Below, piece after piece: positions 6,893-22,393 of a stretch of DNA of 39,531 nt. The notes under the pieces are model-generated. The model was not told where the DNA came from. It did no database searches and saw only the letters and a list, made by a program, of their open reading frames with translations. A program made the position numbers and the translations under genes. Positions within the stretch are counted from its first letter, which is position 1, and the number at the start of each line of letters is the position of its first letter. The stretch lies in NCBI GenBank assembly GCA_018223125.1, contig JAAEZA010000041.1:1-39531 (forward strand). Reading direction: 5' to 3'. The stretch comes from Paracoccaceae bacterium. Its GTDB lineage: Bacteria > Pseudomonadota > Alphaproteobacteria > Rhodobacterales > Rhodobacteraceae.

Positions 6893-6980
6893 CCTGACGT
6901 CTTCGTGATCAATTTTCTGGCAATGATCGGAACTTTCGCGCGTCCCGCCTGTTGGGTCTGCAAAGCGAAAGGAACGATTT

Positions 6981-8354
6981 ATGGCGAAAATTACCACGCA
7001 GAATCCGGCAACCGGCGAGCCGCTCCAGTCTTATGACGTGATGAGCGGGGCCGAGGCGATGGAGCGGTTGGAGGCTTCTCACAACGCCTTTCTCGAATGG
7101 CGCAAACTGGCCCGTAAGGACAGGGCGCCTTACCTTGAAAAAATTGCTCAAAAGTTGCGGGACAACGCAGACGAGCTGGCCGAACTGATGACAACAGAGA
7201 CCGGCAAGCTGCTTAAGGATGGTCACACAGAAATCGAAATCTGTGCAGCGATCTTTGAATACACCGCGAAGAACGGACCTGATATGCTCGCGGATGAGCA
7301 GCGGACCCATGGGGACGGCAAAAAGGGGATCGTCACCTATCAGCCGATCGGGGTGATCTATTCGATCCAGCCTTGGAACTTTCCGCTTTACCAACCTGTC
7401 CGCGTTCTGGCAGCGAACCTGATGGCGGGGAACGGCTGCGTGCTGAAACACGCGAGCATTTGTACAGGTTCCGGCCTGCGCCTGCGGGAGCTTTGCATAG
7501 AAGCCGGATTGCCCGAAGACCTATTTCAGGTTGTTGTGATTGATCACGAAACCTCGGACAAGCTGATCGAACACCCCAAGGTGCGCGGTGTGACCATGAC
7601 CGGCAGCGACAGTGCGGGCCGTCACATCGGCTCGGTCGCGGCAAAAGCGCTGAAGAAAACCGTGTTGGAGTTGGGGTCGAACGATGCCTACCTCGTGCTG
7701 GAAGACGCTGACGTTGAAACCGCTGTGAAGTTTTCGGTGATGGGGCGGCTGTACAACAATGGCGAAACCTGTGTGTCGGCCAAACGGTTTATCGTGACTG
7801 ACAAGGTTTACGACGCATTTTTAGATGCGTTTGTAGAGCAGATGAAGGCGATCAGAATGGGCGATCCGATGGACGAGGATACCCAGCTTGGCCCCTTGTC
7901 CAGCGAAGACCAGTTCAACACCGTAAAAGAGCAGGTCGAAAAAAGCGTATCCCTTGGTGCTTCGGTACTTTGCGGGGGCGAGGTGCCTGAGCGTGCAGGT
8001 GCCTATTACCCCGCCACCGTTCTGGCCGATCTGAAAGAAGGCATGCCGGCCTTTGACGATGAAATCTTCGGACCTGTCGCCTCTGTTATTCGGGCGCGGG
8101 ATGACGAGCATGCAATGCAGCTTGCCAATGACAGCCGCTACGGTTTGGGCGGTGGCATCTTTTGCAAGGATGAAGAGCACGCAGTTAAACTGGCCCGCGA
8201 ACATTTTGACACCGGTATGGTGCGGATCAATTCGTTTGGTGCCGCCGATCCGAACATGCCATTCGGTGGCGTGAAGGATTCCGGTTACGGCCGCGAGCAT
8301 GGCGGTTTCGGGATGAAGGAATTTGTCAACGCCAAGGCTGTTTTCCTGCCCTGA
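6981..8354 (+). CDS. NAD(P)-dependent aldehyde dehydrogenase, succinate-semialdehyde type
   Basis: 457 residues, the compact length of the Sad/YneI-like branch of the ALDH superfamily, which oxidises succinate semialdehyde and related small aldehydes to acids in the cytosol. Visible residues are Asn133 in QPWNFP, Lys156 in VLKHAS, Glu230 in VLELGS, catalytic Cys264 in NNGETCVSAKRF, and the C-terminal FGGVKDSGYGRE segment. The usual ELGG is ELGS here, a mild departure next to the general-base glutamate. It would fit GABA or putrescine catabolism, and the polyamine operon at 27-35 kb could supply such an aldehyde, but the distance makes this only a suggestion. The substrate is not certain. Confidence 0.85.
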   Translation: MAKITTQNPATGEPLQSYDVMSGAEAMERLEASHNAFLEWRKLARKDRAPYLEKIAQKLRDNADELAELMTTETGKLLKDGHTEIEICAAIFEYTAKNGPDMLADEQRTHGDGKKGIVTYQPIGVIYSIQPWNFPLYQPVRVLAANLMAGNGCVLKHASICTGSGLRLRELCIEAGLPEDLFQVVVIDHETSDKLIEHPKVRGVTMTGSDSAGRHIGSVAAKALKKTVLELGSNDAYLVLEDADVETAVKFSVMGRLYNNGETCVSAKRFIVTDKVYDAFLDAFVEQMKAIRMGDPMDEDTQLGPLSSEDQFNTVKEQVEKSVSLGASVLCGGEVPERAGAYYPATVLADLKEGMPAFDDEIFGPVASVIRARDDEHAMQLANDSRYGLGGGIFCKDEEHAVKLAREHFDTGMVRINSFGAADPNMPFGGVKDSGYGREHGGFGMKEFVNAKAVFLP

Positions 8355-8439
8355 TTGCGCCAGCAACCCCCACGCAGCAACGGGCGGTCTGGCACTGCGC
8401 AAGGCACCCATCCATCCATAAGAAAGAGGAGAATTTGAA

Positions 8440-9060
8440 ATGGCTCACAAAAATGTACTCGTAGCAGGTGCAACCGGCAAAACCGGACGGCAGGTTGTCC
8501 GCAATCTGATCGAGCGGGGGTACAAGACGACCGCGCTTGTGCGGGAAACATCTGATACCAGCGTGTTGCCCGAAGAGGCAGAACTGCGTCAGGGGGATCT
8601 GACCGACCTGCAATCGGGGTGCTGTTCCGACATGGACGCCGTGGTATTCGCAGCCGGTGCAGGCAGCGACGCCAGCCCGGAAATGACCGATAAAGTGGAT
8701 CGACAAGGGGCGCAGAGCCTTATGGAACAGGCCCGTCAGGAGGGCGTGGAACGCTTTGTCATGCTCAGCTCTATCGGTGCGGATCAGGAGAACCCGCAAG
8801 GCGAACTGGCCCATTATCTGAAGGCAAAGCATGAAGCGGACGAACACCTGAAAGACTCCGGTCTCGACTATGCGATCCTGCGTCCTGTGGCGCTGACCGA
8901 CGACGGGCGCAGTGCCAAAATCGTTCTGGGTTCGGATGTGGACGCCAGCGCCAATGCGTCCCGCGCGGATGTGGCCCATGTGCTGGCAGAGGCGGTTGAA
9001 ACGGATATGTTTGTGGGCAAGGCTTTGAACATGCAGTCCACAAACCAACAATTGTTCTGA
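8440..9060 (+). CDS. Atypical SDR / NmrA-like NAD(P)-binding protein
   Basis: 206 residues with an N-terminal Rossmann motif GATGKTGRQV (about 10-19), a LVRETSD cofactor-binding stretch, VVFAAGAGSD, MLSSIGAD and ILRPVALT, all typical of the atypical SDR group that includes NmrA, YwnB and flavin-reductase-like proteins. No classical YxxxK is obvious, so catalytic activity is uncertain and a redox-sensing or reductase role is equally possible. A strong AGAGGAG site precedes the ATG. It lies 85 bases after the aldehyde dehydrogenase and could share its transcript. A bidirectional hairpin terminator follows. Confidence 0.8.
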   Translation: MAHKNVLVAGATGKTGRQVVRNLIERGYKTTALVRETSDTSVLPEEAELRQGDLTDLQSGCCSDMDAVVFAAGAGSDASPEMTDKVDRQGAQSLMEQARQEGVERFVMLSSIGADQENPQGELAHYLKAKHEADEHLKDSGLDYAILRPVALTDDGRSAKIVLGSDVDASANASRADVAHVLAEAVETDMFVGKALNMQSTNQQLF

Positions 9061-9074
9061 TCATTCACACATAA

Positions 9075-9109
9075 AAAGGCAGCGGGCGGCGCGACCGTCT
9101 GCTGCCTTT
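9075..9109. terminator. Bidirectional intrinsic terminator between SDR and ureG
   Basis: Convergent genes are separated by a 15-base-pair stem with two G-U wobbles (arms 9075-9089 and 9095-9109, loop CGCGA). On the minus strand TTTTTATGT follows, a good terminator for the urease operon. On the plus strand the stem ends in CCTTTGTTACGTT, a weaker U-rich tail for the SDR gene. Confidence 0.8.
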
Positions 9110-9125
9110 GTTACGTTACAGCCGG

Positions 9126-9737
9126 TTACAGGCCACCGCATTGCATGATGAAGTTCAGCACGTCGTCCACGCCTTCGTTGTTGCGCAAGGCACAAAAGGC
9201 AAACGGGCGTTCGCCGCGCATCTTCAAACTGTCCCGCTTCATTACATCTAAAGACGCACCCACATGGGGGGCAAGATCGGTTTTATTGATCACCAGCAAA
9301 TCCGAACGGGTGATCGCGGGGCCGCCTTTGCGGGGGATTTCCTCTCCGGCGGCCACATCAATCACGTAAATGGTCAGGTCCGCCAGCTCGGGGCTGAAGG
9401 TGGCTGACAGATTGTCGCCGCCGCTTTCGATCAGGACCACTTCCAGATCGTCATGACGCTGCTGCATTTCCGCGATTGCGGCCAGATTGATCGAGGCATC
9501 CTCGCGGATTGCGGTGTGGGGGCAGCCGCCGGTTTCCACACCGATAATCCGGTCCTGCGGCAGCACTTGCATCCGCATCAGGGCTTCAGCGTCTTCTTGT
9601 GTGTAAATATCATTGGTGATCACCCCGATGGACACAGCTGGGTGAAGGGCGCGGGCCAGCGCGGCTGTCAGTGTGGTTTTACCCACGCCCACAGGTCCGC
9701 CGATGCCGACACGCAGGGGGCCGTTCAGTACTGTCAT
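9126..9737 (-). CDS. ureG: Urease accessory GTPase UreG
   Basis: 203 residues, the usual UreG length. The P-loop is [10 protein letters not shown] (13-22). The nickel-linked CPH motif is in [13 protein letters not shown], the [11 protein letters not shown] segment follows, and the NKTD guanine-specificity motif is in [13 protein letters not shown]. UreG hydrolyses GTP to drive nickel delivery into apo-urease together with UreD, UreF and UreE. Its ATG overlaps the ureF stop in an ATGA, so translation is coupled. It is the last gene of the operon and is followed by a terminator. Confidence 0.97.
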
Positions 9738-10381
9738 GTGCGAAAAATCCTTGGTTGTAGCGTTTCGTGCTGCATGGCCGCGATGTCAGACAGGAAAGCG
9801 GTGCTTTCCAGATCGTCGAGCCCTGCATGTTTTGTTCCGGCGGCAATCTGCTGGCATAGCGGCAGCAGCGCGGCGAGGATGGCCTGCCCGTCGGTCTGGC
9901 CCAGAGGCATCAGGCGCTGGGCGGCAGAGACCAGGTTGCCGGTCATGGATTGCACAAACATAACCGCCGTGAGATCAACGTTGAGAGAGAGCCGCGCCGC
10001 TGCGGCACCAACGGCAACCGGATAGATCAGGCCAACGGTTCCTGCGTTCCAGACCGCTGCGGCGGTTTTACAAAAGGCAGCGCCCTGTGTGCCGGTTTCA
10101 AGGCGGCGCTCTGCGCTGGCGGCAAAGGCCAGTCCTGTGTCATTGACCTCTGACAGCGCGGCGGGGGTGGTGCACTGATAGGCGGCACGCAGCAGGATGC
10201 AGTCATTGCACCCGCTACCGTGTTGAAGGATGTCCTCCAGCCAGTCTGAAAGATCCCCGCCTGATTTGATCAGACCGCTGTCAATCGCGGCTTCCAATCC
10301 GTGGGAATAGGCAAATGCGCCAATTGGAAAGGCCGGAGACAGCCACTGCGCCAGTGTCAGCGCGTCTTGCTCAATGCTCAT
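9734..10381 (-). CDS. ureF: Urease accessory protein UreF
   Basis: UreF bridges UreD and UreG in the urease activation complex. Typical features are [21 protein letters not shown] near the N-terminus, a mostly helical body, and [13 protein letters not shown] toward the C-terminus. I chose the ATG at 10381 (MSIEQDAL), giving 215 residues. The frame is open further upstream, but that part lies over the His-rich tail of ureE and is not UreF-like. The start overlaps the ureE stop by 11 bases and the end overlaps ureG by 4, so three accessory genes are translationally chained. Confidence 0.94.
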
Positions 10382-10880
10382 GGGAATGGGCGTGTGTGGC
10401 GGAGTGTGCCCCGTCATGGGCTGTGGCCCCATGCGCATGCGAATGGGTGCGCCCGTGACCGTAAGCGCCACCTTCAGGTGTAAACGGACGGTTCACCCGC
10501 TTCAGGGCGGCGCCAAGATGTTCCAGCATATGCCCGATCACCGGATCATCCTGAATTAACAGGTGGTCACGACCGATCTGACAAGGCGTGTGCCGGTTGC
10601 CCACATGCCACGCCAGACGCACCAGATCCGGCCCTGTCACCTGTAACAGCGCTTCGGGGGCGGCGGTAATGCGGATCAGCCCGCCGTCTGACAGCTCCAG
10701 CGCATCCCCGTCGTTCAGGGATGTGGTCTGGGGCAGGTCCACCAGAAACGGAATGCCACTGGCGGTGGTCAGGCGTTTGCGGCGCAGGAAACGGCCTGCG
10801 TAATCCAGAACGCAACTGTCTGACGCGCCGTTCCAGTCCCCCGCGCGGTAAAGGTTTTGTGCTATCGGAAGCGTGCCCAT
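10371..10880 (-). CDS. ureE: Urease accessory nickel metallochaperone UreE
   Basis: 169 residues. The N-terminal UreE domain (FLRRKRLTTASGIPFLVDLPQ region) is followed by the metal-binding domain with the conserved WHVGNRHTPCQI motif (histidine ligands), then a tail of about 35 residues very rich in histidine ([15 protein letters not shown]). It binds Ni2+ and hands it to the UreDFG complex. The His tail, as in Klebsiella-type UreE, suggests nickel storage capacity. It starts 9 bases after the ureC stop and its end overlaps ureF. Confidence 0.95.
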   Translation of the reverse strand: MGTLPIAQNLYRAGDWNGASDSCVLDYAGRFLRRKRLTTASGIPFLVDLPQTTSLNDGDALELSDGGLIRITAAPEALLQVTGPDLVRLAWHVGNRHTPCQIGRDHLLIQDDPVIGHMLEHLGAALKRVNRPFTPEGGAYGHGRTHSHAHGATAHDGAHSATHAHSHEH

Positions 10881-10889
10881 CGTGATCCC

Positions 10890-12599
10890 TCAGAACATAA
10901 AGTAGCGTTGTGCCATCGGCAGGGTTTCGGCGGGCTGGCAGGTCAGCAGTTCGCCGTCTGCACGGACTTCGTAAGTCTCGGGATGGACTTCGATTTGGGG
11001 CAGGGTGGCATTCAGGACCATGTCCTTCTTGCCGATATTGCGGGTGTTTTTGACTGCCACGGTTTGCTTTGACAGGCCCAGCTGGTCGCGCAGCCCGCCC
11101 GTTTGTGCTGCCCCGGAAATAAAGCTGACCGAGGATTGGCCGAGCGCGCCGCCATAGCTGGCAAACATCGGGCGGGAATAGACTGGCTGGGGTGTCGGGA
11201 TTGACGCATTCGGATCGCCCATTTGCGCCACAACGATACTGCCGCCCAAAAGGACTATTTCGGGCTTCACACCGAAAAAGGCCGGAGACCACAGGACAAG
11301 GTCGGCCCGTTTGCCAATGGATATATCCCCGAGTTCATGGCCGACCCCTTGGGCAATCGCGGGATTGATGGTGTATTTCGCAATATAGCGGCGCACCCGC
11401 AGATTGTCGTTGTCGCCGGCTTCTTCGGCCAGACGCCCGCGTTGCTTTTTCATTTTGTCAGCGGTTTGCCATGTGCGGATCAGAACCTCTCCGACGCGGC
11501 CCATGGCCTGACTGTCCGAAGCGATGATGGAAAACGCGCCCATGTCGTGCAGGATATCCTCGGCTGCAATGGTTTCGCGCCGGATCCGGCTTTCGGCAAA
11601 GGCGATATCCTCGGGAATGGATTTGTCCAGATGGTGGCAGACCATCAGCATGTCCAGGTGCTCTTCCAGCGTGTTGACGGTGAAAGGGCGGGTCGGATTT
11701 GTGGAAGAGGGCAGCACATTGGTATCACCGCAAATCTTGATGATGTCCGGCGCATGGCCGCCACCAGCCCCTTCGGTGTGAAAGGCGTGGATCGTCCGCC
11801 CCTTCAACGCGCCGACCGTGTGTTCCACAAAACCGGATTCATTCAGCGTGTCGGTGTGGATCATCACCTGCACGTCCATGTCATCCGCCACAGACAGGCA
11901 GCAATCAATGGCCGCAGGCGTGGTGCCCCAGTCTTCGTGCAGTTTCAGCGCACAGGCACCGCCTTTGACCATTTCCACCAGCGCCTCCGGCCTGCTGGCG
12001 TTGCCCTTGCCCGACAGGCCGATGTTCATGGCAATCCCGTCAAAGGATTGCAGCATCCGCCCGATATGCCACGGACCGGGAGTGCAGGTTGTGGCCAACG
12101 TTCCCTGCGCCGGACCTGTGCCACCGCCAAAACAGGTGGTCACGCCGGAATGCAGCGAATCCTCCATCTGTTGCGGGCAGATAAAGTGGATATGACTGTC
12201 CATGCCCCCCGCAGTCAGGATACGGCCTTCACCTGCGATCACTTCGGTTCCCGGACCCACGATAATATCCACACCGGATTGTGTGTCCGGATTGCCCGCC
12301 TTACCGATAGCATGGATCAGCCCGTCCTTCAGTGCCACATCTGCCTTGTAAATACCGGAATGATCCACGATCAGCGCGTTGGTAATCACCGTATCCACAG
12401 CGCCCTGTGCGCGGGTGGCTTGGGACTGTCCCATGCCGTCACGGATCACCTTGCCACCGCCGAATTTGACCTCTTCGCCATAGGTGGTCAGATCCCGTTC
12501 CACCTCGATAATCAGATCCGTATCAGCCAGCCGCAGTTTGTCCCCTGTGGTAGGGCCGTACATCGCCGCATATTGCGCGCGGGAAATTTCTACAGGCAT
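10890..12599 (-). CDS. ureC: Urease alpha (catalytic) subunit UreC
   Basis: 569 residues, the family's normal length. It hydrolyses urea to ammonia and carbamate at a di-nickel site. All key residues are visible: His136 and His138 (SHIHF), the lysine to be carbamylated Lys219 ([12 protein letters not shown]), His248 ([11 protein letters not shown]), His274 ([12 protein letters not shown]), the mobile-flap Cys321-His322-His323 (VCHHLD) and Asp362 (ASDSQAMGR). Its ATG directly follows the ureB TGA (TGAATG), so beta and alpha subunits are translated in step. An intact, presumably active enzyme. Confidence 0.98.
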
Positions 12600-12905
12600 T
12601 CAGAGCGCCCCCATAATCTGTTGATTGAAGCCGTAAACCTTGCGATCGCCACCAAAGGGGATCAACTGCACCTCGCGGCGCTGGCCGGGTTCGAAGCGCA
12701 CCGCGGTTCCTGCTGCAATATCAAGCCGCATCCCGCGGGCCTGTTCGCGGTCGAAATCAAGGGCAGGGTTGGTTTCGGCGAAATGATAATGGCTGCCCAC
12801 CTGTACCGGCCGGTCGCCGGTGTTGGCGACCATCAGCGTCACCGTGCTGGCACCGGAATTCAGGGTCAGCAATCCTTCAGCGGGAAAGAGTTCTCCGGGG
12901 ATCAT
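12600..12905 (-). CDS. ureB: Urease beta subunit UreB
   Basis: 101 residues, with the family start [11 protein letters not shown], the central [20 protein letters not shown] block, [17 protein letters not shown] and [10 protein letters not shown] near the end. It forms the (abc)3 urease core with UreA and UreC. It is separate from ureA, as is usual in proteobacteria and unlike Helicobacter, where the two are fused. The start lies 9 bases after the ureA stop with a GGAGC site, and the stop abuts ureC. Confidence 0.97.
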
Positions 12906-12914
12906 GTGGGGCTC

Positions 12915-13217
12915 CTATCGGATCGGGTTGTGGACGGTGACAAGCTTGGTGCCATCGGGAAAGGTGGCTTCAACCTGCACTTCGTGGATCATTTCGGGGA
13001 TGCCTTCCATACAGTCGGCCCGTGTGATCACCTTGCCGCCCGCTTCCATCATATCCGCAACCGAACGCCCGTCCCGTGCGCCTTCGACCACAGCATCCGT
13101 GATCAGGGCGATTGCTTCGGGGTGGTTCAGCTTGACGCCACGGGCCAGCCGTTTGCGGGCCACATCAGCGGCCAGTGCGACCAGAAGTTTTTCTTTTTCG
13201 CGGGGGGTAAGTTGCAT
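12915..13217 (-). CDS. ureA: Urease gamma subunit UreA
   Basis: 100 residues, the standard gamma-subunit length. Family motifs are [11 protein letters not shown] at the start, [25 protein letters not shown] and the C-terminal [14 protein letters not shown]. It is a structural subunit of the urease trimer. It lies 3 bases after the ureD stop, within the urease operon. Confidence 0.97.
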
Positions 13218-13220
13218 GGA

Positions 13221-14036
13221 TCAAAGCCTCCAGGATGCGGGCAAAGGGGATTGGGACAGATGCTCCAACAGGGGCATCAGGCTGCGGCGCAGCGCAAAAC
13301 TGTCATGGGCAAGCTGGCGGATCACCAGCGTATCGGGGGCAATCAGGCTGGCTCCGGCCGTGGCGGGAAGCAGATCGCGGACAGCGCCCAGTTCGGCGGC
13401 CGCATCTGGGTCAACGCACAAGACGCTTGCCATTGCGCCTGCCTTGTTGGCAATGGCGGGTCGGGACAGGCGGGTGGCAGCATCGCCGCTGATCTTCATC
13501 CCGTCGAGGTAAAGGGGCCGTCCATCCCGCGTTACCGAAATGCGATCGTGAAAATGAATGTCGCGCAGAACCTCTTTCATCGCGGCGCGGCCGAAGACGA
13601 CAGGTTCCACCATCAGCAGGCGGGCATCGCCGTGCAGGTCGATGGACAGGCGGCGGGTCAAAGCACAGCGTTCAAACAGGATCAGTTCTTGTGGCAACCA
13701 GTTCATCTGCGCGCCGGAGTGCACGGTTATTCGGGTTGTTACCCTGCCGGTTTCACCCCGTTGTGCGCGGTAAGCCCGCTCTGCCGCTTGGGTCGTCAGG
13801 CTAAGCGCTGCATTCTCCTCGACAGTGATATCCAGATCATACCTGTCGCCGCCGGTGATGCCTCCGGCTGTGTTCACAAGGATCGTCTCGGCGCCATCGG
13901 TTAATTGTCGGGGAAAAACCAGCTTCAACGCACCGGACTGGCGCAAATCCGCAATGCCAGTGCGGCCCGAAAGGGCGGCGCGGAACGTCAGCCTGGCCGC
14001 GCCAATAGCGCGGGGCTGGGCCGGGCTGGCAGGCAA
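13221..14036 (-). CDS. ureD: Urease accessory protein UreD
   Basis: 271 residues from a TTG at 14036. UreD is the scaffold that binds apo-urease and UreF during nickel insertion. Typical segments are LVFPRQLTDGAETILVNTAGGITGGDRYDL, TTQAAERAYRA and the W(L)PQELILFE motif. The start is uncertain: the frame is closed by a TGA about 36 bases upstream and contains no ATG or GTG before TTG, and the GAGGA site lies about 30 bases away, so initiation may be weak or use an unusual codon. It is the first gene of the operon. The region upstream contains paired direct repeats. Confidence 0.92.
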   Translation of the reverse strand: MPASPAQPRAIGAARLTFRAALSGRTGIADLRQSGALKLVFPRQLTDGAETILVNTAGGITGGDRYDLDITVEENAALSLTTQAAERAYRAQRGETGRVTTRITVHSGAQMNWLPQELILFERCALTRRLSIDLHGDARLLMVEPVVFGRAAMKEVLRDIHFHDRISVTRDGRPLYLDGMKISGDAATRLSRPAIANKAGAMASVLCVDPDAAAELGAVRDLLPATAGASLIAPDTLVIRQLAHDSFALRRSLMPLLEHLSQSPLPASWRL

Positions 14037-14301
14037 AAGGCTTATAGAGGCAGGACTGTTGATCGGATTTCCTCACGCGGGTGCGGTTTGTTTCGTAGGC
14101 TCGAACAAAGCACGATCACAGCGGAGGGCGCAGGGGCAGGGAAGGAGTGCGTTTTTTGCCCTAAAAACAGGCATTTGTACAAATTTTAATCTGAAATTAT
14201 GTGATTTGCACAAAAAATAGCGGCATGTAGCAGTGCGCAGAAGGTAGGGTTTTTCGCGCATCCGGCAGGAGATTCTGCCGGATGCGCGATGTGAAAATCG
14301 A
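14037..14301 (-). promoter_or_regulatory. Urease operon upstream region with two ATTTGYACAAA repeats
   Basis: AT-rich DNA between the 110-aa gene and ureD. The perfect palindrome ATTTGTACAAAT (14173-14184) and the near-copy ATTTGCACAAA (14204-14214) are direct repeats whose starts are 31 bases apart, close to three helical turns. The second copy also sits in the dyad TGTGATTTGCACA (14200-14212). This layout suits cooperative binding of a dimeric regulator on one face of the DNA. The regulator is unknown. I see no convincing sigma-54 promoter. Confidence 0.45.
14254..14289. repeat. 15-bp perfect inverted repeat after the 110-aa gene
   Basis: Arms 14254-14268 and 14275-14289 are perfectly complementary (core GCGCATCCGGCAG) with a six-base loop GAGATT. 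It lies 12 bases beyond the stop of the leftward 110-aa gene, where a terminator is expected. However, the T-run (TTTTT) sits on the plus-strand upstream side, so on the minus strand the stem is followed by AAAAACCC rather than a U-tract. It may be a transcript-end stabiliser or a factor-dependent stop rather than a classical intrinsic terminator. Confidence 0.6.
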
Positions 14302-14634
14302 TTATTTGGACAGATCGAGCGGTGTCCGGCCAAGGCTGGCAATCCGGTTGAGCGTCTGAAGGGTTTCTTCAGCATTGCCCTTTTCATAAGCTGCCTTCAG
14401 ATCGTTTGTCGCTTTGGCAAATTCTTCAAAGGCTTTGTCGATTTGTACCGAAGTGACAGGCAGGCGACCGGTCGAATCGATAAACCGCTCACCCAGATCG
14501 CACAGCAGTCCGTAGGCAACTGCGCGGTCTGCGTCCTGCGTCATCGCCTGTTCCGCCAAGGCGATGGTTTTTGTATAGGCCGCGCCGCTTTTGCCGTTGC
14601 TGCGCAGGGTTTCCAGAATTTGATCGAACATCAT
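14302..14634 (-). CDS. Conserved-looking hypothetical protein, 110 aa
   Basis: I do not recognise a family. It is soluble, with no signal peptide, membrane segment or cysteine-rich motif apart from LLCDLGERF, and appears largely helical. Its length, base use and position support a real gene: it starts 11 bases after the pyrE stop (GGAGC site just before the start; two ATGs in a row) and is the last gene of the operon that begins with the TRAP binding protein. A hairpin follows its stop. Co-transcription with pyrE suggests a role in the same process, but no function can be assigned. Confidence 0.75.
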   Translation of the reverse strand: MMFDQILETLRSNGKSGAAYTKTIALAEQAMTQDADRAVAYGLLCDLGERFIDSTGRLPVTSVQIDKAFEEFAKATNDLKAAYEKGNAEETLQTLNRIASLGRTPLDLSK

Positions 14635-14645
14635 AAGCGTGCTCC

Positions 14646-15338
14646 TTAAAGGGTCAGGTGGGATATGCCGCCGTGTCGGGCGGACCAGTCGAGTGGCGCG
14701 TTCAAAAAGCCCTCAACCTCGGTGAGTGTTTTTGTGTCAAAGCGGTTTTGCGCCTTGCTGGCGGCCAGAACATCCCACCATGTAGCAAGGGAATGCAGTG
14801 TGATGCCGTCCGCCTCCAGCCTGTCGCGGGTTTGCTGGAAAATGTCGTAGTAAAAGACGACGATAGCGTGGTCGGCTTTAGCACCGGCGCGGCGCAGCGC
14901 GTTGCAAAAGTTTATCTTGCTGCCGCCATCCGTTGTCAGGTCTTCCACCAGAAGCACGCGCTGCTGTTCCTGAATATCGCCTTCAATCTGTGCATCGCGC
15001 CCGAAGCCTTTGGGCTTTTTGCGCACGTAGTGCATCGGCAGGCCCATTTCCTTGGCGATCCATGCGGCAAAGGGAATACCGGCGGTTTCACCGCCCGCAA
15101 CCGCGTCAAACTGTTCGAACCCTACGTCCCGCAGGATCAGGGACACGGAAAACGCAGTTACCATGTCGCGCAGGCGCGGATAGGCGATGATCTTGCGGCA
15201 GTCTATATAGACCGGGCTGGCAATGCCGGAGGTGAAGGTGAACGGTTTCTCCGCATTAAAATGCACTGCGTCGATTTCCAGCAGCATATTCGCGGTTGTT
15301 TCGCTCATCACCTCGCGGGGGGGGAAATGGCTGCTCAT
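14646..15338 (-). CDS. pyrE: Orotate phosphoribosyltransferase PyrE
   Basis: Transfers phosphoribose from PRPP to orotate, giving orotidine 5'-monophosphate in UMP synthesis. Seen are the orotate-side segment [32 protein letters not shown], the [14 protein letters not shown] flexible loop and the PRPP motif [15 protein letters not shown] (Glu132, Asp133). I chose the ATG at 15338 because an AAGGAA site lies about 5 bases upstream, giving 230 residues; a later ATG (MSETTANM) is a weaker choice. It lies 49 bases downstream of the M20 hydrolase in an operon with a TRAP importer and dihydroorotate dehydrogenase, so it may handle imported or externally derived orotate. It could still be the sole housekeeping pyrE of the genome. 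Confidence 0.95.
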
Positions 15339-15387
15339 CTGTGTTCCTTTACAATCGGTTGCGCTGTGACAGGAGAGGGTTTCAATA

Positions 15388-16662
15388 TCAGTCGCTCTTA
15401 ACCAGATACTCATAAATGATCGAGACACCAGCGAGAAAATCCGCGATTTCCATCGCTTCGTCCGGATTGTGGGAACCGTTCTGGTTGCGCACAAAAACCA
15501 TCGCGGCCGGAACACCGGCGTTGGAAAACACTGCCGCATCATGGCCACCGCCCGACGCCATCGTCGTCGGCTCCATCCCAAGACGGCCCATGGCCTGTTC
15601 CAGTTGGCTGACCAGTTCCGGCGTCATCAGGGCAGGGGGGGTGTTGTTCACATCTCCAAGGTCAAAGGTCACGCCCCGCTCCGCCGCGATTTTGTCCATT
15701 TCCTCGCGCAGAAGCTGCGCCATCGCTTCCAGCACTTCGCTGTTCTGGCTGCGGATATCAAGGCTGAAGCGGATCTCATCGGCGATGCGCGACATGGCGT
15801 GGCGTTCGGGATCGGTCCCGACCACGCCGGACGTCAGCACCAGATCGTCGCCCTTTTGCACGATGGTCAGCCAGCTTTCATCCAGTCGGTGCAGCAGGTC
15901 GGCCATGGCCAGCACAGGGTCTTTGCGAAAGGCGCGAGGCACGGCACCGGAATGGCCTGCCTCGCCGATGCAGCGCACCTGCTTGTGCCGGAAATTACCG
16001 CGAATGCCTGATACAACGGCCGCCGGTTGGTCCTTGCCGATCAGTAGCGGGCCTTGTTCGATGTGCAGTTCGATATATTCCAGAATATCGGATTTATCCA
16101 TCAGCGGTTGCCCGTCCGAAACCCGCGCCATGTCTATTCCGACATCGGCCATATGGTCCGCAAGGCTGCGCCCGTCGCCCTTATGGGCCGAGGCCAGTTC
16201 ATCGGCATTCAAGGTGCCCATCAACGCTTTGGAGGCAATGTAGCAGGGGCCGAACCACGCGCTTTCCTCCCCCCGCATGGCCAGAACCTTTACTGGGCGG
16301 GCAAAGCGGGTGCCGGTTTTGCGGGCGCGGAACAGGCACATCAGACCAGCGAGAACACCGGCCATCCCGTCATAGTTGCCCCCCATCGGCACGGAATCCA
16401 CATGGGAGCCGACAACCAGGAACTTTTCGGCTTTCGCGTCTTCCGGTAGGGAAACCAACAGGTTCTGCCCCGCATCGGTTTCCACAACCAGCCCTTCTGC
16501 ACGGCAGAGGGCAGCGAGAAATTCCAGAACCTCGGTTTCTTTGGCGGAATAGGCCGGACGGGAGACGCCAAGGCGATCGCGGCTCATGTTGAAGATGTCG
16601 TCAAACCATTGCGTTGCAAGGCGCAACTCGTGGGGATCCGGCGTAAAAGACTGCGTGCTCAT
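15388..16662 (-). CDS. M20-family Zn-dependent carbamoylase / ureidohydrolase
   Basis: 424 residues of the hydantoinase/carbamoylase branch of M20 amidohydrolases (allantoate amidohydrolase, N-carbamoyl-L-amino-acid hydrolase, beta-ureidopropionase), which remove a carbamoyl group as ammonia and CO2. Likely metal ligands are His87 (VGSHVDS), Asp98 (GGNYDGM), Glu132-Glu133 (MRGEESAWF), His200 (ELHIEQGP) and His398 near the C-terminus (NGSHNPDEA). The lid domain has [10 protein letters not shown], and SGGGHDAA is at 371-377. Exact specificity cannot be read from sequence. Because it sits between pyrD and pyrE, N-carbamoyl-L-aspartate is a plausible substrate (inference). Its ATG overlaps the pyrD stop (ATGA), so it is translationally coupled to it. 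Confidence 0.88.
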
Positions 16663-17603
16663 GGAGCAGTCTCCATGAACACGACAGAATCCGCTGCATC
16701 TTCATCACGGACCGAGCCGACTAGATCGGATATATCCGCGATATTCCGGGTTTCCAGATAGGTTTCCAACTGCCCGAGCAGAGTCACCATAATGTTGGGA
16801 TTGATAAAGGTTGCAGTGCCGACCTGAACCGCCGTTGCCCCTGCGATCAGGTATTCCACGATGTCTTCGACCGTGGAAATGCCGCCGCAGCCGATCACCG
16901 GAATCTGTACCGATTTGGCACATTGATAGGCCATGCGCAGGGCAATCGGTTTCAGGGACGGGCCGGACAGGCCGCCCATCAGATTGCCGAGTTTGGGTTT
17001 GCGGGTATGGATGTCAATCGCCATAGACAGCAGTGTATTGGCCACCACCAGCGCATCCGCGCCTGCTTCCTCCGCAGCTTGGGCGACTTCGATGGTTTCG
17101 CCCGTGTTGGGGCTGAGTTTCGCCCAGAGCGGCAGGTCAGAGGCGCTGCGCAGTTTTTCCATCACGGTGGTGGTGGTCGATGGGCGCATGGCAAAGGCCT
17201 TGCCGTCCTCCTCGATGTTCGGACAAGAGATATTCACCTCGATCGCGGCCACACCGGGGACGGAGACCTGCTCGCATATCCGCGCGAATTCATCGGCGGA
17301 ATTGGCGGAAATACTGACGACCAAGGGCACGTCATAGGCGTTGTAAAACGGGATCGTATTGTCGATGAAATGCTGCACGCCTTTGGACGGGATGCCGATG
17401 GAATTCAGCATGGACCCGCGCACTTCACAGACCCGCGGTGTGGGGTTGCCGCCCCGTTTTTCCGCAGTGATGGTCTTGGTCACATGGGCGCCCAACTGGT
17501 GCAGGTCCAGCACTTCGGACAGGTCTTCGGAAAACGTGCCGGATGCCGGCATGATGGGATTGGCCAGCGTCAGACTGCCGATTCTGGTGCTCAGGTCTAC
17601 CAT
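16659..17603 (-). CDS. pyrD: Class 1 dihydroorotate dehydrogenase catalytic subunit
   Basis: FMN enzyme interconverting dihydroorotate and orotate. 314 residues from the ATG at 17603, preceded by a strong GAGGAGG. Cytosolic: there is no N-terminal membrane-binding helix as in the class 2 enzymes typical of proteobacteria. Key features are NPIMPASGTF, Lys43 in VTKTIT, RGSMLNSIG, the class 1 catalytic cysteine Cys127 in NISCPNIEEDGKAF, AKLSPN, and the phosphate-binding GCGGISTVEDIVEYLIAGA. With a PyrK-like partner immediately upstream (7-base overlap) it fits class 1B, which uses NAD(H) and can run in the orotate-reducing direction. A pyrimidine reductase of the same superfamily (PreA/dihydropyrimidine dehydrogenase) is a less likely alternative. 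Confidence 0.93.
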   Translation of the reverse strand: MVDLSTRIGSLTLANPIMPASGTFSEDLSEVLDLHQLGAHVTKTITAEKRGGNPTPRVCEVRGSMLNSIGIPSKGVQHFIDNTIPFYNAYDVPLVVSISANSADEFARICEQVSVPGVAAIEVNISCPNIEEDGKAFAMRPSTTTTVMEKLRSASDLPLWAKLSPNTGETIEVAQAAEEAGADALVVANTLLSMAIDIHTRKPKLGNLMGGLSGPSLKPIALRMAYQCAKSVQIPVIGCGGISTVEDIVEYLIAGATAVQVGTATFINPNIMVTLLGQLETYLETRNIADISDLVGSVRDEDAADSVVFMETAP

Positions 17604-18442
17604 GCCATTGCCTCCTCTATGCCAAAGACAGGGCCTTCGCGGCAGACCCGTTCCTGTGTGATGGTGCCCTTCCGGTTGAACGAACGCACGCAACACTGGC
17701 ACATGCCAAGCCCGCAGGCCATTTGCTGTTCCAGCGCGATTTCTCCGGGGATTTGGTGTTTTGCGCCGATCTCCTGCAACAGCTTCAGCATCCGGTTCGA
17801 CCCGCAGGTGTACATGGCATCTACACCTTCAGAGGCGATGCGGCCTTCGATGATGTCGCGCAGGTTCTCCAGATCAGAGGTGCCGTCAGCATCGGTGACG
17901 GTAATCACCTCGGCACCAAGGCTTTGAAAATGGTCGATAGACATCAGCACATCAGCGTTACGTGCCGAACAGATCGCAACCAGTTTGCGGTTCAGGCGTT
18001 GCGCTTCTTGTGCCAGCGGCGCCAGTGTGGCCAGCCCGACGCCCCGCGCCAGCAGCAAAAGGTTCTGCCAGTCGTCCTGAATGGTAAAACCCACCCCGAG
18101 CGGGCCAAGCACGTTCAGCGTATCGCCCCTGGTCAGTGTGGCCAGTGCACGGGTGCCTTCGCCGGTGACTTTGTAAAGGAACTGCAATTCGCCTTTTTCG
18201 GCGGAATAGCCGTAAATGCTCATCGGGCGGCGCAGGTAAGGTTGCTCGGCCTTTGTGACAGGGCAGAGGATGTGAAAGAACTGCCCCGGCTGGCAATCCA
18301 GCACGGACTGCGGCGCATCAAGCGTCAGCAGGCGGTATTCGCCATTCACCGGAGTGTTGGTCTTGACGGTGGTTTCAACTTCATGAGTTGTCCCGTTCGC
18401 CGGAGAAACCTCTCCGGCGTTATACCTTTGTATCAGTGACAT
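17597..18442 (-). CDS. pyrK: PyrK-like FAD/[2Fe-2S] electron-transfer subunit
   Basis: 281 residues of the ferredoxin-reductase type. An N-terminal FAD-binding barrel carries LRRPMSIYGY (about residues 70-80). A nucleotide-binding domain follows (LLLARGVGLATLAPL, where the usual GGxG is RGVG, then YTCGSNRML). The C-terminal cluster motif has Cys243, Cys248, Cys251 and Cys267 (CGLGMCQCC, then ERVC), matching the [2Fe-2S] site of PyrK. It passes electrons between NAD(H) and the FMN of the dihydroorotate dehydrogenase encoded directly downstream. The ATG at 18442 lies 12 bases after the TRAP permease stop. The extra 25 or so N-terminal residues before the barrel are slightly unusual. Confidence 0.88.
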   Translation of the reverse strand: MSLIQRYNAGEVSPANGTTHEVETTVKTNTPVNGEYRLLTLDAPQSVLDCQPGQFFHILCPVTKAEQPYLRRPMSIYGYSAEKGELQFLYKVTGEGTRALATLTRGDTLNVLGPLGVGFTIQDDWQNLLLLARGVGLATLAPLAQEAQRLNRKLVAICSARNADVLMSIDHFQSLGAEVITVTDADGTSDLENLRDIIEGRIASEGVDAMYTCGSNRMLKLLQEIGAKHQIPGEIALEQQMACGLGMCQCCVRSFNRKGTITQERVCREGPVFGIEEAMAW

Positions 18443-18454
18443 TTTTTGCCTTTC

Positions 18455-19735
18455 TTAGCCGAACAGCAACTTCGGAATGAAAAGTGAGATTTGCGGTACG
18501 TAGGTAATCACCAGCAGGACGAGGATGTTGACGAAGACGAACGGCCAGACCCCCCTGATGATATTCAGTACCGGTTTTTGCAGGGTGGAGGAGGCCACGA
18601 ATATATCCAGACCAAAGGGCGGTGTGATCATGCCCAGACTGATGTTCAGCGTGACGATCATGCCGAAATGCACCGGATCTACCCCGAGCGCCGTGGCCAC
18701 AGGAAACAGTGGCGGCACAAGGATCAGCAGGGCAGAGTTCGGGTCAATGAACATGCCCGCGATCAAAAAGCAGATGTTGACCGCCAGCAGGAACTGGATC
18801 GGTCCTGCGTCGATTGCTGTCAGGAAATCCGTGATCTGGGTCGGAACCTGCGCCAGTGTGACGTAAAAGGAAATCAGCCCGCCCATTGCAAGAAGAATGA
18901 AGATCACGCAGGTGGCAATTGCGCTTTGTTCGGTGATGCGGAACAGGTCTTTGAAGCCGAAATTCCGGTAGACGACCATTTCCACGAAGATGGCGTAGAT
19001 GACGCTGACGGCGGCGGCTTCGGTCGGGGTGATGGTGCCGGAATAGATGCCGCCAAGGATAATCACCGGCATCCCCAGCGCCCAGGCTGAATCCTTCAGG
19101 GCCTGATACCGCTGCCCCCAAGAGGTTTTCGCATCGGCTTTGATCCCTTTTCGCTTGGCCTCTATCCAGACCATGACGGCAAAGGCCAGCCCCAGAAAGA
19201 TGCCCACAGCCAGACCGCCTGCAAACAGCCGCGCAATAGAAGTGCCTGTCATCCAGCCATAGATGATAAAGGTGATGGAAGGCGGGATCAGCAGGGCGGT
19301 TTCCGCACTGGCCACCAACAAGCCAAGGCTGAACTTCTCGGAAAACCCGTTCTTGCGCATTTCGGGATAGACCATCTTGCCCATCGCTGCCACCGTGGCA
19401 GGGGCAGAGCCGGAAACCGAGCCGAAGGCCATAGAGCCGCCGATCACAGTATGTCCCATACCGCCACGGGTGTGGCCGATCATGGCGCGCACAAAGCCGG
19501 TCAGATTGCGGGCAATCTGGCCCGATCCCATCAGATGTGCGGCAAAGATGAAGAAGGGGATCGCCAGCAGGGTGGAATGATCCACGCCGCCGAATATCTT
19601 CTGTACCACGGCCGGATCGGGCAGGTTGCCATAGAACAGTTCCTTGGTGGCAAGGGCGGGAACGCCCAGTACCAGAAACATCTCAAAGCCAAGCACCAGC
19701 AGGACAATGGCGAGCGCGATAACAATCAGGATCAT
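18455..19735 (-). CDS. TRAP transporter large permease (DctM family)
   Basis: 426 residues with about 12 transmembrane helices, the normal size of the TRAP large subunit that drives solute import with the sodium gradient. Family segments include LAIPFFIFAAHLMGSGQIARNL, GSVSGSAPATVAAMG (the SGS..A signature of the transport site), IPPSITFIIYGW, GTITPTEAAA and ITPPFGLDIFVASS. It overlaps the small subunit stop/start (ATGA) and is followed after 12 bases by the PyrK-like gene, so the importer and the dihydroorotate dehydrogenase are on one transcript. Confidence 0.95.
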   Translation of the reverse strand: MILIVIALAIVLLVLGFEMFLVLGVPALATKELFYGNLPDPAVVQKIFGGVDHSTLLAIPFFIFAAHLMGSGQIARNLTGFVRAMIGHTRGGMGHTVIGGSMAFGSVSGSAPATVAAMGKMVYPEMRKNGFSEKFSLGLLVASAETALLIPPSITFIIYGWMTGTSIARLFAGGLAVGIFLGLAFAVMVWIEAKRKGIKADAKTSWGQRYQALKDSAWALGMPVIILGGIYSGTITPTEAAAVSVIYAIFVEMVVYRNFGFKDLFRITEQSAIATCVIFILLAMGGLISFYVTLAQVPTQITDFLTAIDAGPIQFLLAVNICFLIAGMFIDPNSALLILVPPLFPVATALGVDPVHFGMIVTLNISLGMITPPFGLDIFVASSTLQKPVLNIIRGVWPFVFVNILVLLVITYVPQISLFIPKLLFG

Positions 19736-20244
19736 GCGTCATCCCCTTCGATTACATGCTGGTTTTCGGAAAAGCGGTCGATCACGGCGAAAAAGGACAG
19801 GGCGAAGCGCAAGGCCAGCAGGCCGAATCCCGTAACCGGCGCCATATAAACCCAGCCGATGGGTATGTTCAGCGTCGGGCTGCGCTGGCCGGTCATCAGG
19901 ACAAATTCCACAAGGCTTGTGCCAAGCCAAGCCAGGTAAACGGCAAAGAAGAAACCCACCACGTCGATCAGTTTCAGAAGGATAGTGCGGGGCATGCCGG
20001 ACAGTTTGTTACGCAAGGAGTCGATCCCCACATGGCGTCCCTTTTCAAGGGTCAGGCCAAGGGCGATGAAAACCAGAAAGATATTCATGAACCGCACGGC
20101 CTCTTCGATCCATGCAAAGCGGCTGGCAAAGGTGCCGCCGATTTCCCGCGCGATGACATTGCCGAAAAACAGAATGACCATGGCAAGAAAGACGCTGACA
20201 AGGAAGGTCCGTTCCACAAGTCTGAGTAGGTTAAGGAGTTTCAA
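19732..20244 (-). CDS. TRAP transporter small permease (DctQ family)
   Basis: 170 residues with four predicted helices. The N-terminal segment LVSVFLAMVILFFGNVIARE and FAWIEEAVRFMNIFLVFIALGLTLEKGRHVGID are typical of DctQ (E-E-x-x-R before helix 2, GRHxxxD after it). I chose the TTG at 20244 (LKLLNLLRLVERTF) because AGAGGA lies 6 bases upstream; an in-frame TTG at 20271 lacks a ribosome site. It partners the large permease encoded directly after it. A strong hairpin lies between it and the binding-protein gene. Confidence 0.9.
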   Translation of the reverse strand: MKLLNLLRLVERTFLVSVFLAMVILFFGNVIAREIGGTFASRFAWIEEAVRFMNIFLVFIALGLTLEKGRHVGIDSLRNKLSGMPRTILLKLIDVVGFFFAVYLAWLGTSLVEFVLMTGQRSPTLNIPIGWVYMAPVTGFGLLALRFALSFFAVIDRFSENQHVIEGDDA

Positions 20245-20292
20245 ATTCGGTCCTCTGGCTGCAACCGGCAAGGCGGATCAGGGGGAATAAAG

Positions 20293-20323
20293 CGGTCGGG
20301 CCCGACAGTGGCGGGCCCGACCG
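20293..20323 (-). terminator. Hairpin between TRAP binding protein and permease genes
   Basis: A perfect 12-bp GC-rich stem (arms 20293-20304 and 20312-20323, core GGTCGGGCCCG) with a 7-base loop and no strong U-tract. It lies 13 bases past the dctP-type stop. This is a likely attenuator or 3' mRNA stabiliser that keeps binding protein more abundant than permease. Confidence 0.7.
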
Positions 20324-20336
20324 GATAGGAGAACGC

Positions 20337-21350
20337 TTATTTGTTTGCGTTGTAGATTTCGATCAGGGCTTCGCCCTCGTCGCCTGCGCGCTTGATATAG
20401 GCGGCGGTTGCCGGCGCAGTCATTTTCTCGGCAAAGGCCTTGCGTTCTTCGGCAGAGGCTTCGCGGATGTTGATGTCACTTTCACCGATCACTTTCAGGG
20501 CTTCTGCAACAGCCGCCGCCTTATGCTCGGTCAGGGCAGGGACAACTTCGTTGAAGGTATCCTTGATGACGGTTTTATATTCGTCCGGCAAGCTGTTCCA
20601 CCACATCGGATTGAACAGAACCATGTCTTCCATTGCGCCGTGCTCTGACACCACAAGGTAGTCCTGCACTTCAAAGAACTTCATGCGCTGGATGGTGTCG
20701 AGCGGGTTTTCCTGCCCGTCCACAACGCCGGTTTGCAGGGATGTGTACAGCTCGCCAAACGGCAGTGCGATGGCAGAGGCGCCAAGGGCGTTGAACTGTT
20801 CGATCAGGATGTTGGAGTCCATCACGCGGAACTTCTGGTCGGCAAAGGATGCAATATCATCCAGTGGCGCGTTGGAAGTGAAGTTTTTCATGCCGTTCGG
20901 CCACCAGGCCACACCCACAACACCCCGTTTGTCAAATGACGCCAGCAAGGCATCCCCGAACGGGCCTTCGCGCAGGGCCTGTGCGGCAGTCGGGTCAGCA
21001 GGCATCAGATAGGGAATGTCGAGCACGGAAACTGCAGGGTTAAAGCCGCCAAGAAAAGCAGCCGGCGCAACGGTAGCTTCCAGTGTCCCAAGCTGCACGC
21101 CTTCGGTCATCTGGCGCTGGTTGCCCAGTTGGGCCTGCGGGAAGATCTGGAATTCAACGGCACCGTTGGTGCGTTCCTTGACCAGTTCAGCAACTTTCTC
21201 CAGATGCACATGACGGCTTTGCTGGGTTGATTCCAGATGGCCGATACGTGCGGTGAAGTCTTGTGCCAGTGCTGGCGCGGCGGAAAGGGCCACAGCCCCG
21301 AGTGCAAGTGCGCCCAGAGCGCGGCGTGTTATTGTTTTTTTCAACGTCAT
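20337..21350 (-). CDS. TRAP transporter substrate-binding protein (DctP family)
   Basis: 337 residues from the ATG at 21350, which has GGAG six bases upstream (a GTG 12 bases earlier overlaps that site and is rejected). The signal peptide covers 1-30, ending APALAQ; its N-terminus has a twin arginine (ITRRALG), so Tat export is possible. The mature DctP fold shows FQIFPQAQLGNQRQM, Arg175 in DQKFRVMDSN, which is the position of the conserved carboxylate-binding arginine of TRAP binding proteins, and GVVDGQENPLDTI. The ligand is therefore probably a carboxylate. The operon contents point to orotate, dihydroorotate or a carbamoyl amino acid. It is the first gene of the operon and is divergent from an XRE regulator. 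Confidence 0.95.
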   Translation of the reverse strand: MTLKKTITRRALGALALGAVALSAAPALAQDFTARIGHLESTQQSRHVHLEKVAELVKERTNGAVEFQIFPQAQLGNQRQMTEGVQLGTLEATVAPAAFLGGFNPAVSVLDIPYLMPADPTAAQALREGPFGDALLASFDKRGVVGVAWWPNGMKNFTSNAPLDDIASFADQKFRVMDSNILIEQFNALGASAIALPFGELYTSLQTGVVDGQENPLDTIQRMKFFEVQDYLVVSEHGAMEDMVLFNPMWWNSLPDEYKTVIKDTFNEVVPALTEHKAAAVAEALKVIGESDINIREASAEERKAFAEKMTAPATAAYIKRAGDEGEALIEIYNANK

Positions 21351-21502
21351 TGTGTTCTCCACTGTTAATCGTTGCTAAAGGACCGCAGCAATGTATCAAA
21401 GTCAAGACAAATCTCAAAAATGAGAAAAATCTAAGTTTTGTCTACACAGATGGCAAATTCTGGACTAAACCCGATGAACCTAACGTGGAAAAAGCCCAGA
21501 GT
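21351..21502. promoter_or_regulatory. Divergent promoter region, TRAP operon / XRE regulator
   Basis: The gap is AT-rich and holds nested inverted repeats: TCTCA-AAAA-TGAGA (21412-21425), flanked by AGACAAA (21405-21411) and its complement TTTGTCT (21437-21443). This is a good candidate operator for the neighbouring XRE-type regulator, controlling both itself and the TRAP/pyrimidine operon. A shorter TCTCA-containing palindrome is also seen at 122-138, but there is no reason yet to link the two. Confidence 0.45.
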
Positions 21503-22393
21503 ATGACATCTCAATATCAAATGATTTCGGACATTGGCAGACGGTTGAAGTCCTATAGACTCGGCGCGGGGCTGACACCAGAGGAGGTTGCAGCGGCGAC
21601 CGGCATCTCCCGCGCAGCGATCTACAGGTATGAATCAGGCCAGCCGATCCGCGTTGATGCGCTGGGCAAGATTGCCGATCTCCTGGATGTTTCACTGGCA
21701 TCCCTGTTCGGGGTGGGATCAGAGAATATCTCTTCGGCGATCACCTTTTTCGAGCGTCTGCGCCAGATTGAATCAGAGGTGGACCAGATCACGGTATTGT
21801 TCGGGCCGGTACCCTATTTGCTGACCACAGATGCCTACGACGAGATGTTGCCACAGGTGTTGCGCGAAAGCGTGCCAGAGACCGCCGCCAACCGCGACGG
21901 GCTGGAAAATACGATTTCGCAGTTGATGGAAATCCTGCTGCAACGCAAACAACAATTCCGCGAACGCAAGCCCAATATCATCGGTCTGGTTTCTGCGACT
22001 GATCTGGAACAATTCGTCGCCTCGGGCTTTGTGGGCAACCTGCATGGCGGAAATCCGGTTCCCCCTGAACGGTTTGAGGTGGCCCGTCAGGAAATCCGCA
22101 ACATCCAGTCCCTGATCGAAGAGCAGCCTATCGGAATGCAGATCGGGATCGTGCAGGATTCCATGCCCAGTACGATTTTCCAGATTCTGCGCAAGGGCAC
22201 CAGTGCGCAGGTGGCGACAAGCCCGTTCCGGCTGGGCGCTTCGGCCAATGTGCGGATCGGTGTCGCAACGATTACCGCAGCAGAGGAATCCGTAAAACTG
22301 CACCAGTCGGTAGCAGAGCGGATCTGGCAGCAAAGTCTGAAGGGGCAGGAGGCTACAGAGCTGTTGCAGCGGATAATGAACGTAAAAGCATAG
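21503..22393 (+). CDS. XRE-family transcriptional regulator with C-terminal sensor-like domain
   Basis: 296 residues from the ATG at 21503; the frame is open upstream, and a GTG at 21485 is an alternative without a ribosome site. An N-terminal XRE helix-turn-helix spans about 11-66 (RLKSYRLGAGLTPEEVAAATGISRAAIYRYESG). The remaining 225 residues are soluble, contain no known enzyme motif that I recognise, and probably bind an effector or mediate oligomerisation. This length is well beyond a simple XRE repressor. It is divergent from the TRAP/pyrD/pyrE operon with a dyad in the gap, so it is the probable local regulator, perhaps sensing the imported compound. Confidence 0.88.
   Translation: MTSQYQMISDIGRRLKSYRLGAGLTPEEVAAATGISRAAIYRYESGQPIRVDALGKIADLLDVSLASLFGVGSENISSAITFFERLRQIESEVDQITVLFGPVPYLLTTDAYDEMLPQVLRESVPETAANRDGLENTISQLMEILLQRKQQFRERKPNIIGLVSATDLEQFVASGFVGNLHGGNPVPPERFEVARQEIRNIQSLIEEQPIGMQIGIVQDSMPSTIFQILRKGTSAQVATSPFRLGASANVRIGVATITAAEESVKLHQSVAERIWQQSLKGQEATELLQRIMNVKA

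Follow-up and report, generated by a model that had tools for sequence, protein, structure and literature searches.

A TRAP importer, PyrKD and carbamoylase operon of Rhodobacteraceae as a candidate module for the uptake and reductive degradation of orotate

Introduction

Orotate breakdown by bacteria is textbook biochemistry, and its reductive route in Clostridium (Zymobacterium) oroticum was reportedly described by Lieberman and Kornberg in the 1950s. The literature searched contained no gene assignment for bacterial orotate breakdown. The window analysed here, the whole 39,531-nucleotide stretch of contig C65 from a Paracoccaceae genome (3.9 Mb, 99% complete), carries at positions 14302-22393 eight leftward genes and a divergent XRE regulator gene, in which a tripartite ATP-independent periplasmic (TRAP) importer is combined with enzymes whose names mostly belong to de novo pyrimidine synthesis. 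Does this operon make pyrimidines, or does it break orotate down?

The second answer is very probably the right one: the operon would serve the import and reductive degradation of orotate, PyrE providing an optional salvage branch. A preliminary description, made from the sequence of the window, had proposed the uptake of orotate and its breakdown for nitrogen. This proposal is supported by a binding protein of a type solved with orotate, by the dihydroorotase genes found in the operons of relatives and by the redundancy of the rest of the genome. The eight packed leftward genes and the divergent regulator gene that it had listed are all present, and their families, as given there, were recovered by a scan with Pfam and NCBIfam (DctP, DctQ, DctM, a PyrK-type protein, class 1 PyrD, an M20 carbamoylase, PyrE and an HTH regulator). 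The genes that would take part in transport and metabolism are the following:

20337..21350, minus strand: DctP, binding protein of the TRAP importer (PF03480; orotate binding predicted via 4NN3)
19732..20271, minus strand: DctQ, small TRAP permease subunit (PF04290; TTG start uncertain)
18455..19735, minus strand: DctM, large TRAP permease subunit (PF06808, TIGR00786)
17597..18442, minus strand: PyrK-like FAD/[2Fe-2S] electron-transfer subunit (PF10418, PF00970)
16659..17603, minus strand: class 1B PyrD, putative NADH-driven orotate reductase (PRK07259 equivalog, NISCPN motif)
15388..16662, minus strand: M20 carbamoylase, proposed N-carbamoyl-L-aspartate hydrolase (ureidosuccinase; TIGR01879)
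14646..15338, minus strand: PyrE, orotate phosphoribosyltransferase, second copy in this genome (NF001729)

In the proposed pathway, DctP would bind periplasmic orotate, which DctQM would import by ion symport. PyrK would then relay electrons from NADH to the class 1B PyrD, run in reverse, in order to reduce orotate to L-dihydroorotate. A dihydroorotase would open the ring to N-carbamoyl-L-aspartate; for the window, either a class II copy on contig C20 or a class I copy on contig C6 would have to act. The M20 enzyme would finally convert carbamoyl-aspartate to aspartate, ammonia and CO2, and the extra PyrE could divert part of the orotate via orotidine monophosphate (OMP) to uridine monophosphate (UMP).

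In the C. oroticum route, too, orotate is reduced with NADH, dihydroorotase opens the ring and carbamoyl-aspartate is hydrolysed, the three steps that are here predicted from genes. However, the C. oroticum work concerned purified enzymes of an anaerobe that lives by fermentation, whereas the present system is an alphaproteobacterial operon that adds an importer, PyrE, a regulator and a 110-aa protein and, in the window, has no dihydroorotase of its own.

The binding protein of the importer

The Pfam models PF03480, PF04290 and PF06808 each exceed their cut-off, which defines the importer as a DctPQM-type TRAP system. Among solved structures, DctP is closest to PDB entry 4NN3 (428 bits, E 2.3e-127; runner-up 171 bits), with 200 of 322 residues identical (62%). 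According to PMC11668362, 4NN3 is a TRAP protein from Maridesulfovibrio salexigens bound to orotic acid, and its position 152 (4P47 numbering) is Lys, while the other structures compared have Arg. Orotic acid is one of the ligands that PMC5812351 lists from Vetting et al. 2015.

By pairwise alignment, K159, R179 and N219 of the window DctP are the Lys, Arg and Asn at 4P47 positions 152, 173 and 213. All three are conserved in 56/56 operon DctPs, R179 being the binding Arg, and the Lys column is occupied by E, E, R and P in four more distant DctPs of the same loci. We take 4NN3 to belong to the ligand screen of Vetting et al. 2015. Beyond their overall identity, the window DctP and 4NN3 thus share the site Arg and Asn and the unusual Lys, although 4NN3 is known as a structure only. 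Because DctP belongs with 4NN3, whose structure contains orotate, orotate is the best-supported candidate for the imported substrate, ahead of dihydroorotate and carbamoyl-aspartate.

The enzymes of the operon

PyrD matches the PRK07259 equivalog with 352.8 bits (cut-off 269) and has the NISCPN motif. The PyrK-like protein scores above the thresholds of PF10418 (Fe-S; 41.4 bits versus 23.9) and PF00970 (26.3 versus 21.1), and its cysteines 243, 248, 251 and 267 presumably hold the [2Fe-2S] cluster. The two proteins have the make-up of class 1B dihydroorotate dehydrogenases, which combine an FMN-type PyrD and an FAD/[2Fe-2S] PyrK as two subunits. The operon enzyme differs from these in accompanying a class 2 enzyme as an additional copy, in its proposed role as a reductase and in its divergent PyrK.

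The M20 protein passes the TIGR01879 cut-off (276.2 bits versus 204), and among solved proteins it is nearest to 3N5F (163 bits), which is an N-carbamoyl-L-amino acid hydrolase. Residues H87, D98, E132, E133, H200 and H398, which we take to be the metal site, are kept in 79/79 operon M20 copies. R221, N223 and R225 are likewise kept in 79/79 and are replaced by A, L and W in the aligned 3N5F. These residues would fit a second carboxylate, such as that of carbamoyl-aspartate, though this proves nothing. The operon PyrE is recognised by NF001729 (374 bits, cut-off 245).

An accessory operon

The rest of the genome was searched for the enzymes of pyrimidine metabolism. A class 2 pyrD, as the preliminary description had proposed to look for, lies on contig C6 (PRK05286.1-2, 487.7 bits, cut-off 366), and a second pyrE on contig C27 (395.7 bits) encodes a protein 66% identical to the operon PyrE. 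Dihydroorotases (pyrC) are found on contig C20 (class II, 431 bits) and on contig C6 (class I, TIGR00857, 319 bits, cut-off 279). This agrees with the earlier expectation that this enzyme is encoded elsewhere, and many relatives carry the gene inside the operon. Furthermore, contig C34 encodes within ~6 kb a PreA (721 bits), a dihydropyrimidinase (580 bits) and an M20 carbamoylase (405.5 bits) with 26% identity to the operon M20 (tblastn); judging by its gene content, this set is a separate uracil-degradation cluster. Neither pyrimidine synthesis nor uracil degradation therefore needs the operon, which on this genomic evidence is accessory.

Conservation and distribution of the module

Among 394 Rhodobacteraceae genomes, a close PyrD of the operon class (E <=1e-60) occurs in 10, which bears out for this family the earlier claim that class 1B PyrD is unusual. 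Nine of these 10 genomes have the module, G263 being the exception; the single further member of the window's genus in this search, G120, has no close PyrD.

Relatives were collected as the best 80 of 115 confirmed candidate loci from a PyrD scan of genome contigs, and all 80 were tested by tblastn. The counts cover stretches of at most 21 kb, and some absences correspond to contig ends. The closest named loci among the matches listed belong to Neptunicoccus sediminis (PyrD 98% identity) and Amylibacter cionae (97%). PyrK lies directly before PyrD in 80/80 loci (which were found via PyrD) and an M20 gene directly after PyrD in 79/80, so the conserved order is more than chance. The order is kept in other genera, both in the 80 loci and in the family search, as the preliminary description had suggested checking. 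The spread of the operon is patchy, in marine alphaproteobacteria and other bacteria.

The importer is the more variable part: 55 loci have TRAP genes, 20 a major facilitator superfamily (MFS) gene (L103 has both) and six neither. In a second lineage, the transporter upstream of PyrK is MFS in 5/5 loci tested and takes the place of TRAP.

A class 2 pyrD was searched in 49 genomes, from 50 of the 80 loci. The sole locus without M20, L108 (Orbaceae bacterium ESL0721), belongs to the only genome of the 49 without a class 2 pyrD over the cut-off, and for these two reasons its PyrK-PyrD is probably a biosynthetic enzyme. In this way the exception supports the degradative reading of the other loci. 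On a long branch, the L108 PyrK-PyrD groups near the catabolic clade. In L108, a catabolic enzyme may have been recruited to biosynthesis.

Presence, probable loss and possible sharing of the dihydroorotase

A dihydroorotase is encoded in 51/80 loci, all of which also have M20 and an importer, so that the orotate reductase homologue, dihydroorotase and carbamoylase stand together there. In the four loci tested, the gene between M20 and PyrE is a TIGR00856 dihydroorotase (402-435 bits). The corresponding site in the window is the following:

15339..15387, no strand: M20-PyrE gap of 49 bp, dihydroorotase site in many relatives

In the output listed, no remnant of a dihydroorotase is visible in this gap. 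In the PyrD tree, the window, L048 and L049 form a supported group (100/100) nested within a larger one of seven rows (100/99), and the four remaining rows all carry the gene; for this reason, loss of the operon dihydroorotase in the window lineage is the simplest reading. Over the whole tree, presence and absence require 13 changes, at least 11 of them forced by supported branches. At 7791-7976 of L133 (genome G019), a fragment matching 66 dihydroorotase residues lies between M20 and PyrE; here the operon copy appears to be degenerating in a genome that has another class II copy.

A class II dihydroorotase over the cut-off is present in 27/28 family genomes (the 10 with a close PyrD, G263 included, and 18 without). 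G089 has two, one of them inside the operon. In G331 (L134) and G152 (L135), where class I enzymes were not searched, the operon copy is the sole class II dihydroorotase. Synthesis and degradation thus seem able to share one reversible dihydroorotase, and in G331 and G152 the catabolic enzyme may have taken over biosynthesis.

Regulator, candidate operator and 110-aa protein

The remaining features of the module are the following:

21503..22393, plus strand: XRE-type regulator with PLD-like C-terminal domain (PF01381, structure matches)
21412..21425, no strand: candidate operator, a palindrome (TCTCATTTTTGAGA) that ends 6 bp before a -35-like box (TTGAC) of the operon
14302..14634, minus strand: 110-aa all-helical protein, conserved with the module, without Pfam/NCBIfam match

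The regulator, a homologue of which is found in 68/80 loci, joins an XRE domain (HTH_3, PF01381) to a C-terminal domain that is PLD-like by structure matches, TrmBL2 among them, and that is without the HxKx4D motif. TrmB-type regulators consist of a DNA-binding domain and a PLD-like sensor. The window regulator resembles them in its C-terminal fold but its DNA-binding part is XRE/HTH_3, not TrmB. Beside the divergent XRE gene lies a TCTCA-N4-TGAGA palindrome that is conserved in relatives. We infer that the XRE-PLD regulator, which would sense orotate or a product of it, acts at this candidate site, just upstream of the -35 box; the operon is probably inducible.

The 110-aa protein has no match in Pfam or NCBIfam. 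In the family search, relatives of it occur in 9/9 genomes with the module and in 1/385 others, there as an unlinked partial match; 59/80 related loci also have one. The gene tracks the module through rearrangements and onto plasmids; in Pseudolabrys-like loci, for instance, it sits between the MFS and PyrK genes in reverse orientation. An AlphaFold model shows five helices (mean predicted local distance difference test, pLDDT, 92), with no clear relative among solved structures. The module gives this small conserved family a concrete context in which its function can be sought.

Plasmids, Klebsiella and milk

A PyrD relative at E <1e-60 is present in 74 plasmid records, 53 of them from Klebsiella. 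At 6533-18909 of NZ_CP050823.1 (L152), from a Klebsiella isolated from milk, the module adjoins lacY-lacZ and consists of MFS, PyrK, PyrD, M20, PyrC, an XRE regulator with 41% identity and the small protein, which scores 60.7 bits with the family profile. At least 80% of the 12.4-kb module-plus-lac stretch recurs in 49 plasmid records, and a near search of 5,426 E. coli genomes with the module part of this stretch gave no match.

A review (PMC12191573) names orotic acid as a constituent of the milk of cows and sheep, at levels far higher than in human milk, in units that look misprinted. The position of the module beside lacYZ suggests joint selection for the use of lactose and orotate in milk. 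The main text of PMC12724306, which deals with lac/fec plasmids of bovine Klebsiella, has no words beginning with orot, dihydroorot, pyrC or pyrD. The plasmid records examined label the dehydrogenase and the dihydroorotase as pyrimidine biosynthesis, and metabolic models built on these labels would therefore give the pathway the wrong direction.

Weighing the explanations

Several points weigh against orotate degradation. The PyrK remains well under all four NCBIfam PyrK equivalog cut-offs (137.3/314, 128.3/219, 125.9/270 and 114.6/224 bits); by its sequence it is a divergent subgroup, hence the name PyrK-like. The substrate of the M20 enzyme cannot be read from family models, no listed NCBIfam equivalog reaching its cut-off, and PyrE plays no part in degradation. 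The window operon has no dihydroorotase, so that degradation there relies on enzymes encoded elsewhere, and 29/80 loci show none (in two of these, L090 and L099, the sequence stops less than 200 bases from M20). Concerning the importer, a second peculiarity of 4NN3 named in PMC11668362 is Asn at 4P47 position 76, but the pairwise alignment places Gln in this column both in the window DctP (Q82) and in 4NN3; the shared Asn, N81, sits one column from Q82 and is kept in just 36/56 DctPs. The same paper states that the bound ligands of most such structures may be co-purified rather than physiological. The orotic acid of 4NN3 could be such a co-purified ligand.

An operon for salvage only, in which the extra PyrE turns orotate into UMP and PyrKD is a spare biosynthetic dehydrogenase for low oxygen, is the best of the other explanations and is itself unlikely. 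It would agree with the presence of PyrE in 63/80 loci and with the general knowledge that quinone is dispensable for class 1B enzymes. However, it leaves the carbamoylase of 79/80 loci unexplained, and this enzyme would destroy a biosynthetic intermediate. Moreover, PyrE is missing from 12 modules with more than 7 kb of sequence beyond M20, and it was not found in 19 kb around the module of the Klebsiella plasmid NZ_CP050823.1.

Somewhat less probable again is a different substrate (dihydroorotate, N-carbamoyl-aspartate or another ureido acid), with PyrD oxidising instead of reducing. The same enzymes link these compounds and sequence does not fix the substrate of M20, but the DctP is of the type solved with orotate, and hydrolysis of carbamoyl-aspartate needs no PyrK-PyrD, present in every locus of a set itself found via PyrD.

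Reductive degradation of uracil and thymine, with PyrD acting as dihydropyrimidine dehydrogenase, deserves hardly any credence. This route (PreTA, dihydropyrimidinase, beta-ureidopropionase) has the same reaction logic and homologous enzymes, PyrD and PreA among them, and M20 carbamoylases are generally known to serve it. In this genome, however, its PreA, dihydropyrimidinase and M20 set is encoded apart, on C34, whereas the operon has PyrE and relatives add dihydroorotase. Housekeeping pyrimidine synthesis, to which most of the enzyme names belong, is just as implausible, with class 2 pyrD, pyrE and dihydroorotases encoded elsewhere and a close PyrD in so few genomes of the family, none in the same-genus G120.

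Layout of the operon and neighbouring genes

The genes are tightly packed, with 4-bp overlaps at DctQ/DctM and PyrD/M20 and spacings of 65 bp (DctP/DctQ), 12 bp (DctM/PyrK) and 11 bp (PyrE/110-aa gene). Four gene starts were reassigned by eye. ATG 21350 was preferred for DctP over the GTG at 21362 of the open reading frame (ORF), and ATG 21503 for the XRE gene, whose ORF is open from 21263. Moving the PyrD start to ATG 17603 makes the gene overlap PyrK, and moving that of PyrE to ATG 15338 leaves the 49-bp gap after M20.

At 14255-14288, 3' of the stop codon of the 110-aa gene, a strong GC-rich hairpin flanked by T and A runs was noted by eye; it is a possible terminator. Urease genes (UreD, two small subunits and UreC; named by eye) lie directly downstream on the same strand (10890-14036, minus). 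Urease and the operon alike would yield ammonia and CO2. By gene labels, this neighbour recurs only in L049 among the 80 loci, and the proximity is therefore probably due to chance.

Significance

The literature searched contained no description of the operon, its candidate operator, its wide but patchy spread or its small protein. There is an even chance that bacterial orotate catabolism is here defined at the level of genes for the first time. This would mean a mobile module made up of a TRAP or MFS importer, PyrK-PyrD as orotate reductase, dihydroorotase, a new subgroup of carbamoyl-aspartate hydrolases and the XRE-PLD regulator, with the 110-aa family as a functional part (e.g., an adaptor of the enzymes or the regulator), which would spread on plasmids, including beside lactose genes, and adapt its hosts to orotate-rich places such as milk. 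As a recognisable unit, the module would supply genes, a regulator and a candidate operator for orotate breakdown, and it points to a class 1B dihydroorotate dehydrogenase employed as a reductase. It would also predict which bacteria can live on orotate, a range that includes marine alphaproteobacteria as well as dairy Klebsiella.

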